From Desulfamplus magnetovallimortis (GTDB lineage Bacteria; Desulfobacterota; Desulfobacteria; Desulfobacterales; Desulfobacteraceae): a stretch of DNA of 64,000 bases. The notes beneath the pieces were generated by a model, which made no database searches, was not told the origin of the DNA, and saw nothing but the letters and a program-made list of their open reading frames with translations. Of this stretch, positions 1,864 to 33,024 are shown piece by piece. Each line of letters opens with the position of its first letter. The stretch's first letter is position 1. The translations under genes were made by a program, and so were the position numbers. Where the stretch lies: the NCBI RefSeq assembly GCF_900170035.1, contig NZ_LT828542.1, positions 246,610-310,609 of the forward strand, in the 5' to 3' direction.

Positions 1864-4800
1864 CTATTGAATAATAATTTTCAATGGAAATGTTGTGTTG
1901 CCTAATGCATCTGAAACACTCACATAATCATAGTATATAGTTCCAGAAACAGAACCGACATCATTAAACTGATAGTTGTATGCCCTATAATCAGGATCTC
2001 CATCTCCATCAGTATCAGGACCCTCCGATCCAGGAACCACAGAGACAATGCCAACTATTGGGATAAAAGTATCGTCAGATGCAGCACTGCCAAACGAAGG
2101 CAATCTAAAAGATACATTTCCCCCTGAAGGACAGTGCAACACATACGGGTAAGCCGAATCAGGCAGATAGCCCGCCTCTGCCTCTGCCTTTTCAGCAGGC
2201 AATGTAAAGCGCATAATCGATTTTGTTTCAGTTCCAAAGACCATGGTTGTTGCAATAATCCTTACATAAATCCACATTGCGCTCGATTTGAGATAGACAA
2301 GATCAAATTCCGCCAATCCGCCAGAATCAGTTGTTAATATAGTAGGAATATTTCCTGCAGCAGAATTGGGAGGTGTCAATATGGAATCACTATTAGTATC
2401 TTCCCCAGGGTCAAGAAAAGTGTTTTCATTTTCATCCTCATTATAAAATGTCCCTGTAAAATAAGGTACATAATGATCACTAACTCTGTCATTATAATCG
2501 TACCAGACTCCTGTATTGTAAAATTCAGGCCATAGATTAAGAGAAACCTTTGCTCCTGGAACAGGATTTCCGTTCAAATCAGAAACAAGCACTGACATAT
2601 ATAATGAGTATGTAGTGGGATTTAATATCTGAATTGAATCACCTGCCCCACGTCCTATGACTACCGAACCTGAAGTGCCACCTATTACAATAGTAGTTGA
2701 GTGAAGAAGTGCGGTTATGACCACATCAGCACCAGCTCCTTCTGCAAAAACATCATTATCCGAATCCAATGTAAGAGTATTTGCAGTAACATTTTCTACA
2801 AAAAAATAACCATCATTGTAAATAGAGCCTTGAACCTTAATCTGTTGATTATTTTGAAATCCGTCTGCAAGGAAAGATCCACTTGATCTTTGAATAATAT
2901 TAGGCTCGACAAAAGAAATATTTGTCATGTTGCCAGTAGTTCCCGAATCAGCCACCCTTGCATTAATTGTAACACCTTCTGCATCAGATCCAAGAGACCC
3001 TGCCGTAAAAGTGGTTTTTGCCTCTCCTGCTTCATTGGTATATACAATGACAGGAGAAACCCTTTCTCCGCTTCCGGTAGAATCCGTAATTGAAAAGACA
3101 ACAGGAACACCTGCAACTGCCTGATTTCCTGTGTCTCCACTGGTTTTTACATAAGCAGTGAGTTCAGCCACAGATTCATTATCCCCAACAGTTGGTGCTA
3201 TAACAGAAGTATTGGACTGTAACAGTATTGTGGCTGCATCGTAATCAGGCCTTGTAAATACTATTAATACACGATCAACAGTGTCAGGATTATCATTATC
3301 AGAGACCTCAACAGTAGCAAGACCAGCAAGATCTGAAGTAAGCTGAACAGAAACATAGCCTTCAACAACATTTTTTACTAACACCTGCAAATCACCACCA
3401 TCCAGTCCACCTATGGATGTAGCAAATTTTACCTGAGATTGATTGGGTGCCCGAACCAAAACAGTAACACTTTCGTCTGTTGACCAGCTTGTCAAATCTT
3501 CTGATGGCGTTACTATTCCAAAGGAATCTGCAAGGACAGCAATAGAATAGGTTTTGGTAGCAATTACCCCAACCCCCTCAACTATAATTTGAGCGGAACC
3601 TGCCCTTTCACCTTGTACAGTTAATTTTAACTGACCATTTATATCCGTTGTATATGGCCCCAAAGGAGTCCATGTAACTGAACCAGTCTGGCTTGGAGGA
3701 AGTGTTATGGAAAGAGATGCATCATAAATAGGATTTCCTCCAGCATCTTTTACAGTAATCGTTAACTCTGAACTATTTGATTCATCAGCATCCGTAGTTT
3801 CATCGTCCAATATCAAATCTGTACCATTATCAGCAAGAGATATTGTGGAGCCAACGACCTGAACAGGAATCGTTCTGGGATCAAGCTGGGAAACATCCGC
3901 TGTAACAGTAACTATTCGGTTTGATTTATCAAACGTTCCGGAGGAAAATGTGACTGCGGCCTCACCATTCTCATCGGTTTCAACAAGGGAAGAACTCAAC
4001 TGCCCCCCATCTGCAGTAAAAGAGACAGGAATTCCCTCCATTACAGCATAGTCGGCATCAAGAACAGTTGCAGTAATCGTGGTACTGTCTGAATTATCCG
4101 TTTTGACAGAAATTTGAGATAGAGCAAGGGTTAGATATGCCGGGGTCTGATTGTCGGAAGAGCCACCGGTGAAAACAACCGTAGTCGCCTGGGTAATGCC
4201 GTTAGAGGTACAGACAACCCTTGCAGTGCCGGCTTCCGTACCTGATATCAAGGCCACGGAGACAACACCGGTATCATCTACAGTAGCAACATTAGTAGAT
4301 GAAAGAGAACCAAGGGTCGTCGTCAACGTCATAGAAGTTCCCTGTAACACCGGTTGACCTGTACTGTCTGTCAAGGTAACCGTGATTGTCGAGGAACTTT
4401 GGCCATCAGCAGGAATAGATGTAGGGGATGCTGAAAGGCTTATTGACGTCGTGGAGCCAATGCCGGTATCTGAACCTGTAAAAAATACTGTGGTCAATTG
4501 ACTTACATTGTTGGACGTACATGAAATATCAGCACTTCCAGATGCAGTAGAGGAAATCAGCGAAACATACAGTACTCCCGAATCATCTAAAGTTGAAAGG
4601 GTATATGATGTGGATCCGTTTAAAAATATACCACTACTTGTTCTAAAGGTTGCCTCGGTTCCATTTGGCATCACCTTTCCTGTACTGTCATAAAGTGTTG
4701 CCTTAATTATCAGTGAACTCTTTCCATCAGCAGGAATCTGTTCGGGAGATGCGGAAAGCTCTATATAAGCTGTCTCACTCTCCTGATAGTCTCCTTCAAA

Positions 4801-25889: not shown

Positions 25890-26618
25890 ATGAAATATTA
25901 TCCTGTTCTGCTTGACATCAACATGAAAAACTGCCTTGTAGTGGGTGGGGGAAAAGTAGGGGCAAGAAAAGCTGCCACACTTGCAGAAGCAGGTGGAGTT
26001 GTGACAGTTGTAAGTCCTGACTTCTCAAACTCATTTTACAGACATCCGCTTAACAGCTATGGCAACATAAAAAAAATTGAAAGAAGCTATCAAACCTCGG
26101 ATTTAGATACAATGTTCCTTGTGATTTGTGCCACAAATCATGAAAGCACCAACATCAAAGTTACTGCTGATGCAAATACAAAAGGTATCCTTTGCAATAT
26201 TGCTGACAATCCTGAATCAAGTCACTTTATCCTCCCTGCCATAATAAACAGAGGAGATCTTATGATAACAGTATCAACATCCGGCAGCAGTCCAGCTTTT
26301 GCCAAAAAGATCAAAAATGAACTGGAACAAAAATTTGGAAAAGAGTACGAATTTTTTCTGGATTTGATGGGATTAATAAGAAAAAGGCTTTTGAATTTTT
26401 CAAAAACAAAAGAGGGCATGCAATCTGAGCTTACCCAGAAACAGCATGCAGCAATTTTCAGAAAGCTTGTAAATTCCGATATTCTGAACAGAATTGCTGA
26501 GAATGATGAATCTGCTGTTTACACTATTCTTAAAGAGATATTAAATGGGTTTCCAGAGGAAATATACCTTAATCCTGACTCTGGAAACATATTTTCATTT
26601 TCGGAGGATTGCTCATGA
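25890..26618 (+). CDS. sirC: precorrin-2 dehydrogenase / sirohydrochlorin ferrochelatase domain protein (SirC/CysG N-terminal type)
   Basis: 242 residues. The Rossmann motif VVGGGKVGARKAATLAEAGG (residues about 16-35) binds NAD and oxidises precorrin-2 to sirohydrochlorin. The dimerisation region follows with CNIADNPESSHFILPAIINRGDLMITVSTSGSSPAFAKKI in successive parts, the standard SirC/CysG-N signature. There is no methyltransferase domain, so it is a stand-alone SirC. In sulfate reducers this step feeds siroheme, cobalamin and the siroheme-dependent heme route. Its TGA overlaps the ccsA ATG (ATGA), so translation is coupled. A small chelatase (CbiX) is encoded at 62.6 kb. Confidence 0.93.
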   Translation: MKYYPVLLDINMKNCLVVGGGKVGARKAATLAEAGGVVTVVSPDFSNSFYRHPLNSYGNIKKIERSYQTSDLDTMFLVICATNHESTNIKVTADANTKGILCNIADNPESSHFILPAIINRGDLMITVSTSGSSPAFAKKIKNELEQKFGKEYEFFLDLMGLIRKRLLNFSKTKEGMQSELTQKQHAAIFRKLVNSDILNRIAENDESAVYTILKEILNGFPEEIYLNPDSGNIFSFSEDCS

Positions 26619-27450
26619 CACTGGAACAAAGCACCACACTGCTCTTTTCCGGAGCAACTTTACTGTATGCTGCTTCAATGACAGCATATCTGTTATTTTT
26701 TTTAAAACAACAGAACAAACTGGAGAGCCATGCGTATATTATGCTATGCATTGGTTCACTGCTTCACTTTATGGCAATTGCCTCCACTGCTTTCAGCATG
26801 GGAACCCTGCCTTCCCACAATCTTCAACAGACCCTTTACACAGCATCCCTTGCTCTGTCATGGGTTTTTATTCTTCTTAAACAAAAATTTAACCTGAAAA
26901 TATTAGGGCTTTTTGCTTCTCCTTTGATACTTTTAATGATGATATGGGCTATGCTTCTGCCTGACACACCACCTGCCCAGGAATCATTTTTAAAGGGATT
27001 CTGGCTTGTTGCTCACATAGTATTGATTTTTGCAGGAGAGGCAGCCCTTGCCCTTGCATGTGGTGCAGGGATTCTATACCTTGTACAGGAAAAAGCCATA
27101 AAAGAAAAAAGAGGGGCTTTTTTTACAAGAGGCTTCCTTCCCTTGATCTTCTTGACAACACAAGCTACACAAGCGTTATTACAGGATTTACAATGCTTAC
27201 AATGGGTCTTATCACAGGACTTATCTATGCAAAAACAGTATGGGGAACATTCTGGCGCTGGGATCCCAAGGAGATATGGTCAGCGGTCACATGGCTTGTC
27301 TATGCAGCACTGCTCCACGGACGCCTTACATCCGGATGGAGAGGGAAAAAATCTGCAATGATGACAATTATTGGCTTTGCTGTTATGCTTTTCACTTTTT
27401 TTGGTGTCAACATGCTCATTGGCGGCCATCATCAGAATTTTACAAGGTAA
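26615..27450 (+). CDS. ccsA: cytochrome c assembly protein CcsA/HemX-type, split by a frameshift at a T7 run
   Basis: Integral membrane protein with about eight helices. The start ATG at 26615 has GGAGG 7 nt upstream and overlaps the sirC stop. The reading frame is normal up to about residue 170 (EKRGAFF), then the homology continues in the -1 frame: YKRLPSLDLLDNTSYTSVIT, then WGTFWRWDPKEIWS, the WWD heme-handling signature, and a final helix to the stop at 27450. The shift falls in a run of seven T at 27118-27124. One extra T, or a -1 slip, restores a protein of about 278 residues, the family's normal size. Without it the protein ends at 27361 in unrelated residues and lacks the WWD motif. 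The cause could be a sequencing error, a real mutation or programmed slippage. Position between sirC and hemA fits the known hemA-hemX neighbourhood. Confidence 0.85.
27118..27124 (+). other. T7 homopolymer at the ccsA frameshift
   Basis: Sequence GGGGC, seven T, then ACAAG. Reading GCT TTT TTT then slipping back one base gives TAC AAG AGG, which continues the protein family sequence. Confidence 0.85.
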
Positions 27451-27762: not shown

Positions 27763-29115
27763 ATGTCTAACATAATACTTATTGGAATTAACCACAACAC
27801 AGCGTCAGTAGAGCTTCGGGAAGCCCTTGCATTTACAAGGGAAGAGATCATTGCAACCTTGCAAACACTCAAACAGAACAACAGAGTAAAAGAGGCACTG
27901 ATTTTTTCCACATGCAACCGCATGGAAATACTGTTTATTCCGGAACAATCCTGCAATCCAGAATGCTCATGCAATATGGATAGTGACAGAGATGCCAGAA
28001 GCATAACTGATACAGACTCAATGATAAGTTTTCTTGGTGAGACCAAAAAGATATCACCAGAAAAATTCAGGAGTTCACTTTATATTTACAGCAACAGTGA
28101 GGCTGTAAAACACATTTTCAGGGTCGCATCAAGTCTGGACTCCATGATTGTCGGTGAACCTCAGATACTTGGACAGGTCAAATCCGCATATCGAGACACT
28201 GTTGAAGCCAATGCATCAGGTGTTATCATAAACCGCCTTATGCACAAGGCATTCAGCATTGCAAAAAAAATAAGACGGGAGACAGGTATTGGTGATAACG
28301 CTGTTTCCATAAGTTATGCAGCAGTTGAACTTGCCAGCAAAATTTTCAGTGATCTCAGTCAGCGCTCTGTCATGCTACTTGGTGCAGGTGAGATGGCCGA
28401 AATTGCAATTGAACATCTGATTTCCCACGGAGTCGAAAGCATAATTGTAGCAAACAGGACTTTTAAAAATGGAGTTGCTGTTGCAGAAAAGTTCAATGGA
28501 AAGGCAATAACCTTTGACGAGCGTCTTGATGCACTAAAGGATGTTGACATAATAGTAAGCTCAACCGGCGCAACTGACTATGTTCTCACAAAAGCACATC
28601 TTAAAAAAGCCATGCAGCTTAGAAAACATCGTCCTCTTTTTTTGATTGACATTGCAGTACCAAGGGACATTGATCCCGGAATCAATAAAATAGACAATGT
28701 CTATCTTTATGATATTGATGATCTTCAAAATATTGTTGACGACAATATGGATGAAAGAAAAAAGGAGGCTGTCAAAGGTGAAAGACTGGTTGAAGAGGCT
28801 GTTATAAAATTTCAGAAATGGATTGACAGCCTTGATGTGGTTCCCACCATTGTTGACATAAAAAACAAAATTGATACGATTGCTAAATCAGAAGCAGAAA
28901 AAACCCTTGCTTCCCTTGACCTTAATGATTGGCAAAAGGAGGCCATTGAGCGGATGCTCCAGGCTGTAAGCAGCAAAATAATGCATGACCCCATACGTTT
29001 TCTGAAAAACACCGGCTGCCATCGGGATGACTCATTTTACATTAATGCAGCAAGGCAGTTATTCAACTTAGACAATGGCCTTGCCCTTCCGGATACAACC
29101 AAAACTGAAATATAA
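27763..29115 (+). CDS. hemA: glutamyl-tRNA reductase HemA
   Basis: 450 residues. It reduces glutamyl-tRNA(Glu) with NADPH to glutamate-1-semialdehyde, the first step of C5 tetrapyrrole synthesis. Key marks are GINHNTASVELRE at the N-terminus, the catalytic Cys in FSTCNRMEI (about residue 50), the EPQILGQVK motif, the NADPH site VMLLGAGEMAEIA (about 203-215) and a C-terminal dimerisation helix. An unusual hydrophilic insert with three cysteines follows FIPEQ (about residues 66-88, CNPECSCN). No SD is visible before the ATG. The stop codon TAA (29113-29115) lies in a degenerate F2 head. It continues the sirC-ccsA set but is separated from it by repeats. Confidence 0.95.
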   Translation: MSNIILIGINHNTASVELREALAFTREEIIATLQTLKQNNRVKEALIFSTCNRMEILFIPEQSCNPECSCNMDSDRDARSITDTDSMISFLGETKKISPEKFRSSLYIYSNSEAVKHIFRVASSLDSMIVGEPQILGQVKSAYRDTVEANASGVIINRLMHKAFSIAKKIRRETGIGDNAVSISYAAVELASKIFSDLSQRSVMLLGAGEMAEIAIEHLISHGVESIIVANRTFKNGVAVAEKFNGKAITFDERLDALKDVDIIVSSTGATDYVLTKAHLKKAMQLRKHRPLFLIDIAVPRDIDPGINKIDNVYLYDIDDLQNIVDDNMDERKKEAVKGERLVEEAVIKFQKWIDSLDVVPTIVDIKNKIDTIAKSEAEKTLASLDLNDWQKEAIERMLQAVSSKIMHDPIRFLKNTGCHRDDSFYINAARQLFNLDNGLALPDTTKTEI

Positions 29116-29429
29116 CATATATGATAGATACCCTATCTTTACCGTGAAAATGACTATCATTTTTATATTTGGGGGTGCTTGATACGTAATCAATCATGCC
29201 CGTTTAAACATTTCATCAATTGGTTTACTCTAAAATTGGTGTACTCTAAAACACAACATACATGACGGATACCTGCTGCATTCAAATGGATCAACCATGA
29301 GGGTTTAGACTTTTGGCATACAATCGAATTTAATCTTTACATTTACACTTTCGACGTGTAAAATCAGAAAATTTTTTTCCAAACAGGCTCAACACCAATG
29401 GGCTGTCAATTAAAGTGAAGGACAAAAAA
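29116..29429. other. 314-bp gap with F2 head remnants, F1 and a small hairpin
   Basis: Begins with a degenerate F2 head, contains a reversed F1 (29138-29206) and an F3-like minimal hairpin near 29341-29363 (TTTACAC/GTGTAAA). The rest upstream of the DksA-like gene should hold its promoter, which I cannot place. Confidence 0.5.
29138..29206 (-). repeat. F1 element, TTGAT/ATCAA variant
   Basis: TTTACCG start, AAAATGA/TCATTTT stem around CTA, then GGGGGTG and the stem TTGAT/ATCAA around ACGTA, end CGTTTA. Confidence 0.9.
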
Positions 29430-29792
29430 ATGGAACAAAAAGATCTGGATTTTTTTAAAGCACTCTTAACTGAAAGACTCAGCGATCTCCTTTCTCATGC
29501 GGATTCCACTGTGACCGGCATGACCGCTCCCAAAGATAATTTTGCAGATCCAACGGACAGAGCTTCCCACGAAGCGGAAAGAAATTTTGAACTGCGGATC
29601 AGGGACAGGGAGCATAAGTTGATCAAAAAAGTAAAACAGGCTTTGATGCGTATTGAAAACAACACCTTTGGAATATGCGAGACCTGTGGTGAGGATATTT
29701 CCACGCCAAGGCTGAAAGCAAGACCTGTCACTACCCAATGCATTGAATGCAAAACACGGGAAGAGATGATGGAAAAAGCTCTTGGCATATAA
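29430..29792 (+). CDS. DksA/TraR-type zinc-finger protein
   Basis: 120 residues from the ATG at 29430 (GAAGGA 7 nt upstream; a GTG five codons earlier is less likely). A helical coiled-coil hairpin (about 5-75, DRASHEAERNFELRIRDRE) is followed by the four-Cys zinc finger ICETCGEDI ... TTQCIECK at about 84-110. DksA-family proteins enter the RNA polymerase secondary channel and tune transcription with ppGpp. The coiled-coil tip has DNFADPTD, close to the DxxDxA tip of DksA, so a DksA-like function is plausible. The stop TAA (29790-29792) is part of an F2 head. Confidence 0.9.
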   Translation: MEQKDLDFFKALLTERLSDLLSHADSTVTGMTAPKDNFADPTDRASHEAERNFELRIRDREHKLIKKVKQALMRIENNTFGICETCGEDISTPRLKARPVTTQCIECKTREEMMEKALGI

Positions 29793-29967
29793 CAGCCATG
29801 GCGGATACTCACTGCAATGGTAATAATGGATACCCACTGCAATGGCAACAATGGATACCCCTGCAATGGCAACAATGGATATCCACTGCAATGGCAACAA
29901 TGGATACCCACTGCAATGGCAATATAGGAAGTCGTTTTAAAAACAGGCCGTTACGGAAACTTAGAAT
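29788..29967 (+). repeat. F2 element interrupted by a 25-bp tandem array
   Basis: Head CATATAACAGCCATGGCGG at the left, F2 tail GAAGTCGTTTTAAAAACAGG ... GTTACGGA at the right. Between them lies a tandem array replacing the stem A loop region. Confidence 0.8.
29813..29925 (+). repeat. tandem array, about 4.5 units of 25 bp
   Basis: Unit GGATACCCACTGCAATGGCA plus ACAAT. The third unit is 2 bp shorter. No spacers. Confidence 0.93.
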
Positions 29968-30211: not shown

Positions 30212-31936
30212 GTGATTGATCTGCACATTCATTCAACTGCTTCAGATGGCTCATATTCACCACCGGAAATTCTACAGATGGCTGTAAAATCTGGCCTGAC
30301 AGCCATTTCAATTACAGACCATGATACCACAGATGGTGTCAGAGAAGCCATTGAGTATGGAATTCCTCACCAGCTTGAATTTATTACAGGTGTGGAGATA
30401 AGTGCTCATCCTCCGGCAGAATATTCTGATATGGGAACCCTTCACATTCTTGGCTACGGGTTTAGCATTTATGACCGCAATATGATAAAAACCCTACGGA
30501 AACTGAAGAGTGCACGTCTCCATCGAAATCCCCGGATAATTGAAAAGCTGAACGATCTTGGCTTTTCCCTTTCAATTCAAGAGGTGGAAAATATCTGTGG
30601 GCCGGGCCAGATAGGACGTCCACACATTGCAAGGGCAATGCTGAAAAAAGGTTACGTATCCACTTTTGACGAAGCATTTGATCTCTACCTTGGCAAGGAT
30701 AAAGCAGCTTATGTTGACAAATTCAGACTGTCGGCAAAAGAGGCCATTGATTTGATCCTTGGCGCTGGTGGACTTCCTGTACTTGCCCACCCCGGTATTA
30801 TTGAACATTATTACCAGGAACATAATGACAAAACTTTATCCCTGAATAATACCTTTGAAAAAAGAGACAAACCCGTTTCCCAAGATAATAAACCTGGAAA
30901 AAGAGACAGCTCATTACCCCCGAACAATAGTGATCTCTGCCGTCAAAATTGCCTACCACGCATAGAAAACCTTATATCGCGCCTCTCAGCCCTGGGATTG
31001 GCAGGCATTGAAGTACATCATACAGACCACACTGCCGCACAGACACAGATGTTTGAAAAAATAGCAACAAAAAAAGCACTTGTCATGAGTGGTGGTTCTG
31101 ATTTTCATGGTGATATAAAACCGGAAATATCCATGGGCAAAGGAAACGGTTCACTTAACATTGATCATGAGCTTTACAGAAACCTCTATATCTCGGTTGA
31201 TCGCCAAAAACAGGAAAACCCAGCAACTGAAAAACTTGAAATCAATCTTAATCACACTTTCAAGTCAAAATCCCTGTTTCACAATGCCCTCTACCACAGC
31301 TCCTATGTAAATGAGATGCAAAATCCTGATATTATTGATAACCAGCGCCTTGAATTTCTTGGAGATGCAGTTCTGGGACTGGCTGTCGGTCATATTCTAA
31401 TGGAGAAATTTCCAGATATGAAAGAGGGAGATCTATCAAAACTTCGAGCTTCCCTTGTAAGCGAACCTGCCTTGGCATCCATGGCAAGAAAGATGGATCT
31501 GGGGCGATTTATATACCTTGGCAAAGGTGAGCGTCTCTCAAGGGGTGGTGAAAAAAACTCAATTCTTGCTGATACATTTGAGGCAATAATTGCTGCCATC
31601 TATCTTGAAACCGGATTCAAGAACACATATCAGCTTGTTGAAAACTACTTTGAACCCCAAATTGTCCAGCTCTCACTTAACAACGAAACTGAGGATTACA
31701 AAAGCATGCTTCAGGAAATTGTTCAGGAGATGGGTGATTTCACACCATTTTATTCTGTTTCTGGAGAAAGTGGTCCTGATCATGATAAGACCTTTGAGGT
31801 AACCCTCAAAGTATGTGGCATTGAGACACGGGGACAAGGCAAAAATAAAAAAACTGCAGAACAGAGCGCGGCTGCAATGGCCATAGATCTCCTCAGACAT
31901 GACAGCAACACCAATGAAACTGCCATTGACAAATGA
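30212..31936 (+). CDS. fusion of PHP-domain phosphoesterase (RNase AM/YciV-like) with ribonuclease III
   Basis: 574 residues. Residues 1-310 are a PHP domain of the YciV/RNase AM type, with metal motifs DLHIHSTASDGS (3-14), ITDHDTTDG (about 35), GVEISA (about 60), LAHPG (about 190) and GGSDFHGD (about 293). It carries a Lys/Asn/Asp-rich insert of about 50 residues after LAHPG. Residues about 340-490 are an RNase III catalytic domain, with signature RLEFLGDAVLG (about 378-388) and second acidic motif DTFEAIIAAIYLETG (about 454-468). A double-stranded RNA-binding domain follows (about 493-565, ending KKTAEQSAAAMAID). Both halves keep their key residues. RNase III releases rRNA precursors; RNase AM trims 5' ends in E. 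coli, so the fusion may couple two processing steps. GTG start with AAGGA 11 nt upstream. The next gene overlaps by 4 bp. Confidence 0.92.
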   Translation: MIDLHIHSTASDGSYSPPEILQMAVKSGLTAISITDHDTTDGVREAIEYGIPHQLEFITGVEISAHPPAEYSDMGTLHILGYGFSIYDRNMIKTLRKLKSARLHRNPRIIEKLNDLGFSLSIQEVENICGPGQIGRPHIARAMLKKGYVSTFDEAFDLYLGKDKAAYVDKFRLSAKEAIDLILGAGGLPVLAHPGIIEHYYQEHNDKTLSLNNTFEKRDKPVSQDNKPGKRDSSLPPNNSDLCRQNCLPRIENLISRLSALGLAGIEVHHTDHTAAQTQMFEKIATKKALVMSGGSDFHGDIKPEISMGKGNGSLNIDHELYRNLYISVDRQKQENPATEKLEINLNHTFKSKSLFHNALYHSSYVNEMQNPDIIDNQRLEFLGDAVLGLAVGHILMEKFPDMKEGDLSKLRASLVSEPALASMARKMDLGRFIYLGKGERLSRGGEKNSILADTFEAIIAAIYLETGFKNTYQLVENYFEPQIVQLSLNNETEDYKSMLQEIVQEMGDFTPFYSVSGESGPDHDKTFEVTLKVCGIETRGQGKNKKTAEQSAAAMAIDLLRHDSNTNETAIDK

Positions 31937-33024
31937 CCTCTACTCCTGATTCATCTGGGTCCAAATCCTCACCCCCGCTTATTATTCCTTTTTTTATTCC
32001 CCATGCAGGATGCCCCCACCAATGTGCTTTTTGCAACCAGTCTATAATTACAAACAAATCACAAAACTCCGGAATAACTGCAACATGCAGTTCAGAAGAT
32101 ATTAACAGAACTGTTAAAGAATTTCTTGCATATAGAGGGTCAAGGCAAAAAGTTGAACTTGCTTTTTTCGGGGGGAACTTTCTTGGCCTTAATGAACCTG
32201 AAATTAAATCCATTCTGCAGACAGGGCAAAAACTTTTCAATGAAGGCAAAATAGATGGGATACGCTTCTCCACAAGGCCTGACACAATCACAAAAAGAAC
32301 CCTTGATTTAATAACAGGGTACCCTGTCTCCACAATTGAGATAGGGGTTCAATCAATGGATAACCATGTTCTCAGAAAATCCCAACGTGGCCACTCTTCT
32401 GAAAATACAGTCAGGGCAGCAGAGCTTTTAAAAGACTATACCCCTAATATCTCAATGGGAATGCAGATGATGGTAGGGCTTCCCGGGGACAATGATGCAA
32501 CAGCCATTAATACAGCAGAAAGAATTGCTGGTCTTGAGCCGGATTTCATAAGGATCTATCCATTAGTAGTACTTGAGGGCAGCATGATTGCCAGATGGTT
32601 TCGTCAGGGTAAGTATTATCCCATGTCACTAAAAGAGAGTGTGAACCTTGTTAAAAAAATATTTCTCATATTTGAGCAAAATGACATAGATGTCATACGA
32701 ATGGGCCTTCAGTCTTCAGATATCATGCAGGATGAAAGTATGATGATTGCAGGGCCTTGGCATCCTGCATTCGGGCATCTTGTCCACTCTGAACTATTTT
32801 TTGATCATGTCGTTGAAATAATCCAGAAAAAATTGAGTACCAGCTTTTCTGATGCAACCCACCTTAAATTAGCTGTTCACCCATCTTCAATTTCACGTCT
32901 TCAGGGAAACAGAAAAGAGAATATAAAAAGATTAGAGACAATGTTTCCTTCAACAACCTTTCAGATAATAACTGATAAAGCCCTTGATAGAAGCAGGCAC
33001 GGAATAAATGTTAATTTTTTTTGA
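31933..33024 (+). CDS. radical SAM protein (Elp3/HemN-like group)
   Basis: 363 residues. The cluster motif CPHQCAFCNQ (CxxxCxxC, residues about 27-36) binds the [4Fe-4S] that cleaves SAM. FFGGNFLGL is the GGE-like motif, STRPDTI and EIGVQSMDNHVL are typical of the Elp3-like radical SAM subgroup, and GLPGDN follows. The acetyltransferase domain of true Elp3 is absent. ATG overlaps the PHP-RNase III stop (ATGA), indicating coupled expression. Radical SAM genes of this kind are often found next to rnc; the substrate is not known, and a tRNA modification role would be a guess. Confidence 0.9.
   Translation: MTSTPDSSGSKSSPPLIIPFFIPHAGCPHQCAFCNQSIITNKSQNSGITATCSSEDINRTVKEFLAYRGSRQKVELAFFGGNFLGLNEPEIKSILQTGQKLFNEGKIDGIRFSTRPDTITKRTLDLITGYPVSTIEIGVQSMDNHVLRKSQRGHSSENTVRAAELLKDYTPNISMGMQMMVGLPGDNDATAINTAERIAGLEPDFIRIYPLVVLEGSMIARWFRQGKYYPMSLKESVNLVKKIFLIFEQNDIDVIRMGLQSSDIMQDESMMIAGPWHPAFGHLVHSELFFDHVVEIIQKKLSTSFSDATHLKLAVHPSSISRLQGNRKENIKRLETMFPSTTFQIITDKALDRSRHGINVNFF

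Follow-up and report, generated by a model that had tools for sequence, protein, structure and literature searches.

A PHP phosphoesterase domain fused to ribonuclease III in Desulfamplus magnetovallimortis and its relatives: a candidate cut-and-trim ribonuclease

In the stretch analysed here (the window: 64,000 nucleotides (nt) of Desulfamplus magnetovallimortis, assembly GCF_900170035.1, contig NZ_LT828542.1, positions 246,610 to 310,609), one gene was confirmed to encode a PHP phosphoesterase and a ribonuclease III (RNase III) in a single chain, and this fusion is a fixed trait of the family and not an oddity of one genome. From the residues kept in both halves it is proposed, with a rough probability of 45%, that the protein would act as a cut-and-trim ribonuclease, in which RNase III would cut the stems and the PHP half would trim the new 5'-phosphate ends. 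The fused gene is composed as follows.

30212..31936, + strand: php-rnc fusion gene, 574 residues, GTG start, a single intact frame
30212..31201, + strand: PHP phosphoesterase half, residues 1-330
30809..30940, + strand: insert in the PHP half, about residues 200-243, a low-confidence region of the structure model
31244..31651, + strand: RNase III nuclease domain, residues 345-480
31697..31894, + strand: double-stranded RNA binding domain (dsRBD; dsrm), residues 496-561

The preliminary description of this stretch had claimed one chain holding PHP, RNase III and a dsRBD with the catalytic motifs of both enzymes intact, and each of these points was borne out, the domains following one another in that order from the N to the C terminus. 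The C-terminal 230 residues correspond to a full RNase III with its dsRBD, scoring 234.8 bits with TIGR02191 (curated cut-off 166.25), and the carboxylates E381, D385, D454 and E457, at positions that we take to be the catalytic ones of RNase III, are present in the window protein and were kept in all 42 fused loci. At the position of D454, Asp in 42/42 fused loci, the stand-alone RNase III enzymes of the order carried Asn in 11/69 and Gly in 6/69. It was also observed that a Glu of the NERLEFLGD motif is replaced by Gln (Q378 in the window, 31343-31345) in 15 of the 42 fused loci and in 4 of the 69 stand-alone enzymes.

The preliminary description had also raised the matter of another rnc in the genome. 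A whole-genome search with the fusion matched two places only, namely the fusion gene and, 75 kb from it, another PHP paralogue, and the RNase III half alone matched a single place, so that no other rnc was found with either query in an assembly that is 97.3% complete and gave no 16S ribosomal RNA (rRNA) match. On these searches the case for the absence of a second intact rnc from this genome is strong but not absolute.

The PHP half was examined against E. coli RNase AM, with which 81 of 278 aligned residues are identical, in an alignment that also held 42 fused and 60 separate PHPs. The metal ligands of the window protein are H5, H7, D12, H37, E62, H78, H193, D297 and H299, in which all the ligands of RNase AM (H13, D20, H45, E72, H83, H198, D255, H257) find their match. 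The residues of the predicted 5'-phosphate pocket, R102, R105 and R136, and the stacking F156 (R107, R110, R141 and F161 in RNase AM) are likewise conserved. All nine ligands, the pocket arginines and the stacking Phe were unchanged in the 41 fused PHPs that could be read (41/41) and in every separate one (60/60). In one further PHP of the window's genome that was read, Arg107 is replaced by Gly and Phe161 by Val, and the insert at about residues 200-243 is short or missing in most of 28 aligned relatives. According to the accessible parts of the RNase AM structure report (PMC9410882), that enzyme has three metal sites, Arg107, Arg110 and Arg141 surround a buried 5' phosphate, and Phe161 stacks on the base. 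Because the metal ligands, pocket arginines and Phe are kept, the PHP half is predicted to bind a 5'-monophosphate nucleotide end. A dead PHP or RNase III half, considered as a candidate, was not supported by this conservation of ligands and catalytic residues.

The same architecture was found in scores of genomes, by which a sequencing or assembly artefact as the source of the fusion was ruled out. In a protein search with the fusion, PHP, RNase III and dsRBD occurred together in 117 of the best 120 of 1279 matches, the first being the window's own and the three exceptions starting about 25-28 alignment columns late; among the matches listed, fusions extended down to 47% identity. When ten aligned fusions, none of them from the window's own family, served as the query, the full set appeared in 115 of the best 120 of 7040 matches, six rows being common to both lists. 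Organisms named in the listed matches include Desulfamplus, Desulfobacula toluolica, Desulfocicer vacuolatum, Desulfatibacillum aliphaticivorans and Candidatus Magnetomorum. Where the databases name these proteins, they mostly call them ribonuclease III, as for the copy of Desulfobacula toluolica, and a few are given as 3',5'-nucleoside bisphosphate phosphatase or hypothetical protein.

The regularity of the fusion within the family was evident from a random set of 241 genomes with a completeness of 85% or more, of which 50 belonged to the own family (f1). This family was taken as Desulfobacteraceae, as we infer from the match values of the named Desulfamplus locus L032, which equal those of L003 in G008, a genome of the window's genus. 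A long frame of 437-591 residues was present in 47 of the 48 own-family genomes with an rnc match (two of the 50 had none), and the full fusion query matched somewhere in 86/86 own-family genomes, in four of them (G066, G072, G077, G084) weakly and through a distant PHP. A scan of named genomes covered at least 80 loci, three of which matched in both halves: two are fusions (L032, L034) and the third (L033) consists of two adjacent genes.

The origin of the fusion can be followed in the gene order of the locus, whose neighbours in the window are given here.

27763..29115, + strand: hemA (glutamyl-tRNA reductase), farther upstream
29415..29792, + strand: dksA, the conserved neighbour upstream of the fusion gene
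31933..33024, + strand: radical SAM gene (Radical_SAM and Radical_SAM_C), with a 4-nt overlap with the fusion gene stop

In all, 111 loci were read: the own family supplied 32, another 54 families of the order supplied 78, and the last was a named Desulfatibacillum locus (L034), which is identical to G101 in the tree alignment; L003 and L032 are probably one genome. The own family was fused in 31 of 32 loci, with 19-49 nt between the aligned PHP and RNase III domains, and lacked PHP in the remaining one. In the other families PHP has a gene of its own immediately upstream of rnc in 60 of 78 loci, with 26-381 nt between the aligned parts, and is fused in 10 of 78 (families f2, f3, f5, f26, f37, f43 and f56), which makes eight families with the own one. 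PHP adjoins rnc or is fused to it in 102 loci, of which 100 have dksA upstream and 95 the radical SAM gene downstream; hemA was seen in many of the loci whose sequence extends that far. Since the separate PHP gene lies between dksA and the radical SAM gene, upstream of rnc, the fusion joined two operon neighbours.

Of 57 genomes from outside the order, 34 contained a PHP relative at 42-53% identity (E < 1e-30), and the 5'-phosphate pocket was kept in 18/18 unlinked PHPs read from other classes. Among the 77 named loci with a match to the RNase III half alone, some of them with short flanks, none had PHP beside rnc. An older stand-alone PHP was thus brought beside rnc in this order and then joined to it, apparently more than once. 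On a quick tree of 91 loci, which included 12 of the 32 own-family loci, left 45 of 87 inner branches open and cannot separate gain from loss of the fusion, the fused state required at least eight changes (shuffled mean 19.8), seven without the PHP-less rows, and four were forced by the starred branches. Fused and split sisters were found inside one family, as in G163 (fused) and G138 (split) at 97 and in G190 (fused) and G098 (split) at 98. A supposed fusion in another class, a 670-residue frame at L220 (G294), was rejected as a chance long frame in DNA of high GC content, lying over an upstream gene in another frame. It was also observed that the unlinked PHP adjoins a gene that reads from its sequence as a Lon-like protease in 6 of the 18 other-class loci (L250, L254, L256, L258, L262, L264).

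A cut made by one half and a trim made by the other would be, as we infer, the simplest job that the two could share. The RNase III half would cleave precursor RNA in its double-stranded stems, after which the PHP half would remove nucleotides from the new 5'-phosphate ends, acting on RNA in the 5' to 3' direction and on the RNase III products, with precursor rRNA as the presumed main substrate. RNase III works as a dimer, so that a dimer of the fusion would have two PHP domains and the trimming site would come to lie beside the cut ends. In their accessible parts, PMC8708148 reports that RNase III makes 5'-monophosphate ends on pre-23S and pre-5S rRNA, and PMC9848016 and PMC10250234 describe RNase III as well as RNase AM as taking part in the maturation of rRNA in E. 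coli. The widest form of this proposal, a bifunctional endonuclease and 5'-3' exonuclease in one chain that would form a new class of bacterial RNase III, cut the stems of pre-rRNA and trim the 5' ends so made without releasing it, be fixed in an entire family of sulfate reducers and have been invented several times by the joining of two neighbours, can be offered only tentatively.

Several findings weigh against a cut-and-trim ribonuclease. First, the resemblance between the PHP half and RNase AM, claimed in the preliminary description, stood for the fold, the metal ligands and the 5'-phosphate pocket but not for the family score or for every residue: with the RNase AM model NF047791 the half reached 151.6 bits, below the curated cut-off of 375 (E. 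coli RNase AM itself scores 505.9), and Arg201, placed at the active-site sulfate in the accessible parts of PMC9410882, is I196 in the window and L, I or S in relatives, with one gap. NF041577, the model of 3',5'-nucleoside bisphosphate phosphatase, slightly outscored NF047791 in all eight proteins of this group that were scored. The PHP half itself gave 164.5 bits with NF041577 (cut-off 400) and four separate PHPs of the order gave 187.3-202.8; the half thus falls below the cut-offs of both families, which leaves more than one candidate substrate. Second, the pairing is not universal. Within the own family, G085 has a plain rnc of 233 residues with no PHP half, in 8 of the 78 loci from other families rnc stood without a PHP neighbour (G183, one of the eight, lies at a contig edge), and PHP was beside rnc in none of the 28 loci read from other classes of the phylum. 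A single fused clade gave p 0.0525 in the approximately unbiased (AU) test, and a single origin is thus not formally rejected. Third, other enzymes are at hand: RNase J exceeded its cut-off in 28 of 30 genomes, including the window's own, and matched partially in the remaining two; RNase E/G exceeded its cut-off in 30/30. With both present, other enzymes can mature rRNA 5' ends, which ruled out the notion that the PHP half must make these ends because nothing else can. CysQ exceeded its cut-off in 0/15 own-family genomes, 0/2 of f2 and 8/13 others, and another 18 of the 30 genomes gave weaker matches below it, a pattern that leaves the job of a phosphatase for adenosine 3',5'-bisphosphate (pAp) open for another enzyme.

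This last point leads to the alternative that survives best, in which the PHP half would be a phosphoesterase of small molecules or short oligonucleotides (a pAp or 3',5'-nucleoside bisphosphatase, similar to Cv1693) that clears the end products of RNA decay, its tie to RNase III reflecting a shared part in RNA turnover and not the trimming of precursors. The preference for NF041577 and the room left by CysQ, above its cut-off in none of the 15 own-family genomes, both speak for it, as do the unlinked PHPs of other classes, which share the same pocket and adjoin the lon-like gene, not rnc, in a third of the loci read. Moreover, the accessible parts of PMC9410882 describe the residues around bound AMP (adenosine monophosphate) as common to Cv1693 and RNase AM and conclude that the two share one mechanism. 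However, the score with NF041577 lies far under that family's cut-off, NrnA- or Orn-type enzymes are potential fillers of the pAp and oligonucleotide role, and the recurrence of RNase III as the partner in several families would be left unexplained. On balance this alternative is regarded as less likely than a cut-and-trim ribonuclease.

It is rather improbable that the fusion was a bystander event, in which close neighbours occasionally lost a stop codon and the two halves work separately with no gain. Such accidents would be easy, as a possible rnc start lies inside the PHP frame, at most 40 nt from its end, in 19 of the 60 split loci and a possible 4-nt overlap occurs in 7 of 60, and the sister pairs described above, fused and split within one family, suit this explanation. 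The PHP is, moreover, missing in G085 and lies elsewhere in the genome in G131, G230, G244, G223 and G183; only distant PHP matches or none were obtained in G085, G251, G117 and G159, and likewise in G218, which had no rnc match. In G085 (L118, about 2989-3020), the dksA stop is followed by 26 nt, the GTG of the plain rnc frame and then the radical SAM gene, and this frame starts with Val-Ile as in the fusion, as might be expected if a fused ancestor had lost its PHP part. Against a bystander event stand the near-constant long frame of the own family, the short and narrow distance between its two domains, the persistence of fusions down to the lowest identities listed, and their occurrence in eight families. 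A PHP half without catalytic activity, acting for RNase III as a dimer- or ribosome-binding scaffold, is barely credible in view of the unchanged ligands and pocket in all fused and separate PHPs that were read.

The radical SAM gene downstream had been suggested, in the preliminary description, to act with the fusion on the same RNA, a suggestion that found little backing. Its product scored below the cut-off of all 25 NCBIfam families shown (29 matched), and a radical SAM match of more than 180 bits also follows plain rnc outside the order, in 15 of 28 other-class loci and in 13 of the 77 named ones, where several belong to Clostridia. This gene is an older neighbour of rnc, and its role as a fusion-specific partner was ruled out.

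Elsewhere in the window, a 25-bp unit in 4.8 repeats (92% matches) occupies 29803-29922, between dksA and the fusion gene. Upstream, at 26609-27450, a gene similar to those of cytochrome c assembly is apparently split into two overlapping frames. The frame at 26609-27361 covers only the first part of the cytochrome c assembly domain, with a score below the domain cut-off, and the other, at 27058-27450, holds a tryptophan-rich stretch that we take to be typical of that family. The break appears to be a frameshift or a sequencing error.

To our knowledge, little is known of the enzyme that finishes rRNA 5' ends outside model bacteria. That these two genes have apparently been joined several times points strongly to a common RNA target of RNase III and a PHP phosphoesterase across many anaerobes. 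The finding also corrects the annotation, since the current names hide one half of the fusion enzyme. The preliminary description knew of no described example, and none was found in the open-licence literature searched, neither of RNase III with PHP nor of RNase III in these organisms.

Among known systems, the fusion resembles bacterial RNase III (rnc; TIGR02191, class I) in its complete RNase III with dsRBD and its catalytic carboxylates. Class I enzymes, however, have one RNase III domain, an optional dsRBD and no second enzyme domain, whereas the fusion carries an additional N-terminal PHP of about 330 residues with intact ligands. PMC8708148 assigns every bacterial RNase III to class I and speaks of an additional N-terminal domain in the yeast enzymes; the term PHP occurs in its text 0 times. 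With E. coli RNase AM (Rnm, YciV; NF047791; PDB 7ug9; 9etk for V. cholerae) the PHP half shares the fold, metal ligands, three pocket arginines and stacking Phe, but it is devoid of Arg201, scores below the family cut-off and is fused to RNase III, while E. coli rnm adjoins yciO and not rnc. The fold and ligand motifs are also common to the 3',5'-nucleoside bisphosphate phosphatase Cv1693 (NF041577; PDB 2yb1), whose family cut-off the PHP half does not reach. The PHP phosphoesterase BAD_1165 (PDB 3e0f, 3o0f) is a stand-alone chain of about 300 residues labelled only as a putative phosphoesterase. RNase J, a 5'-3' exonuclease and endonuclease, could fill the same niche of 5'-end trimming, but it belongs to a different family and is a separate gene in these genomes. 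The domains are known ones, and the joined enzyme is a new variant of bacterial RNase III with a probable joint mechanism.
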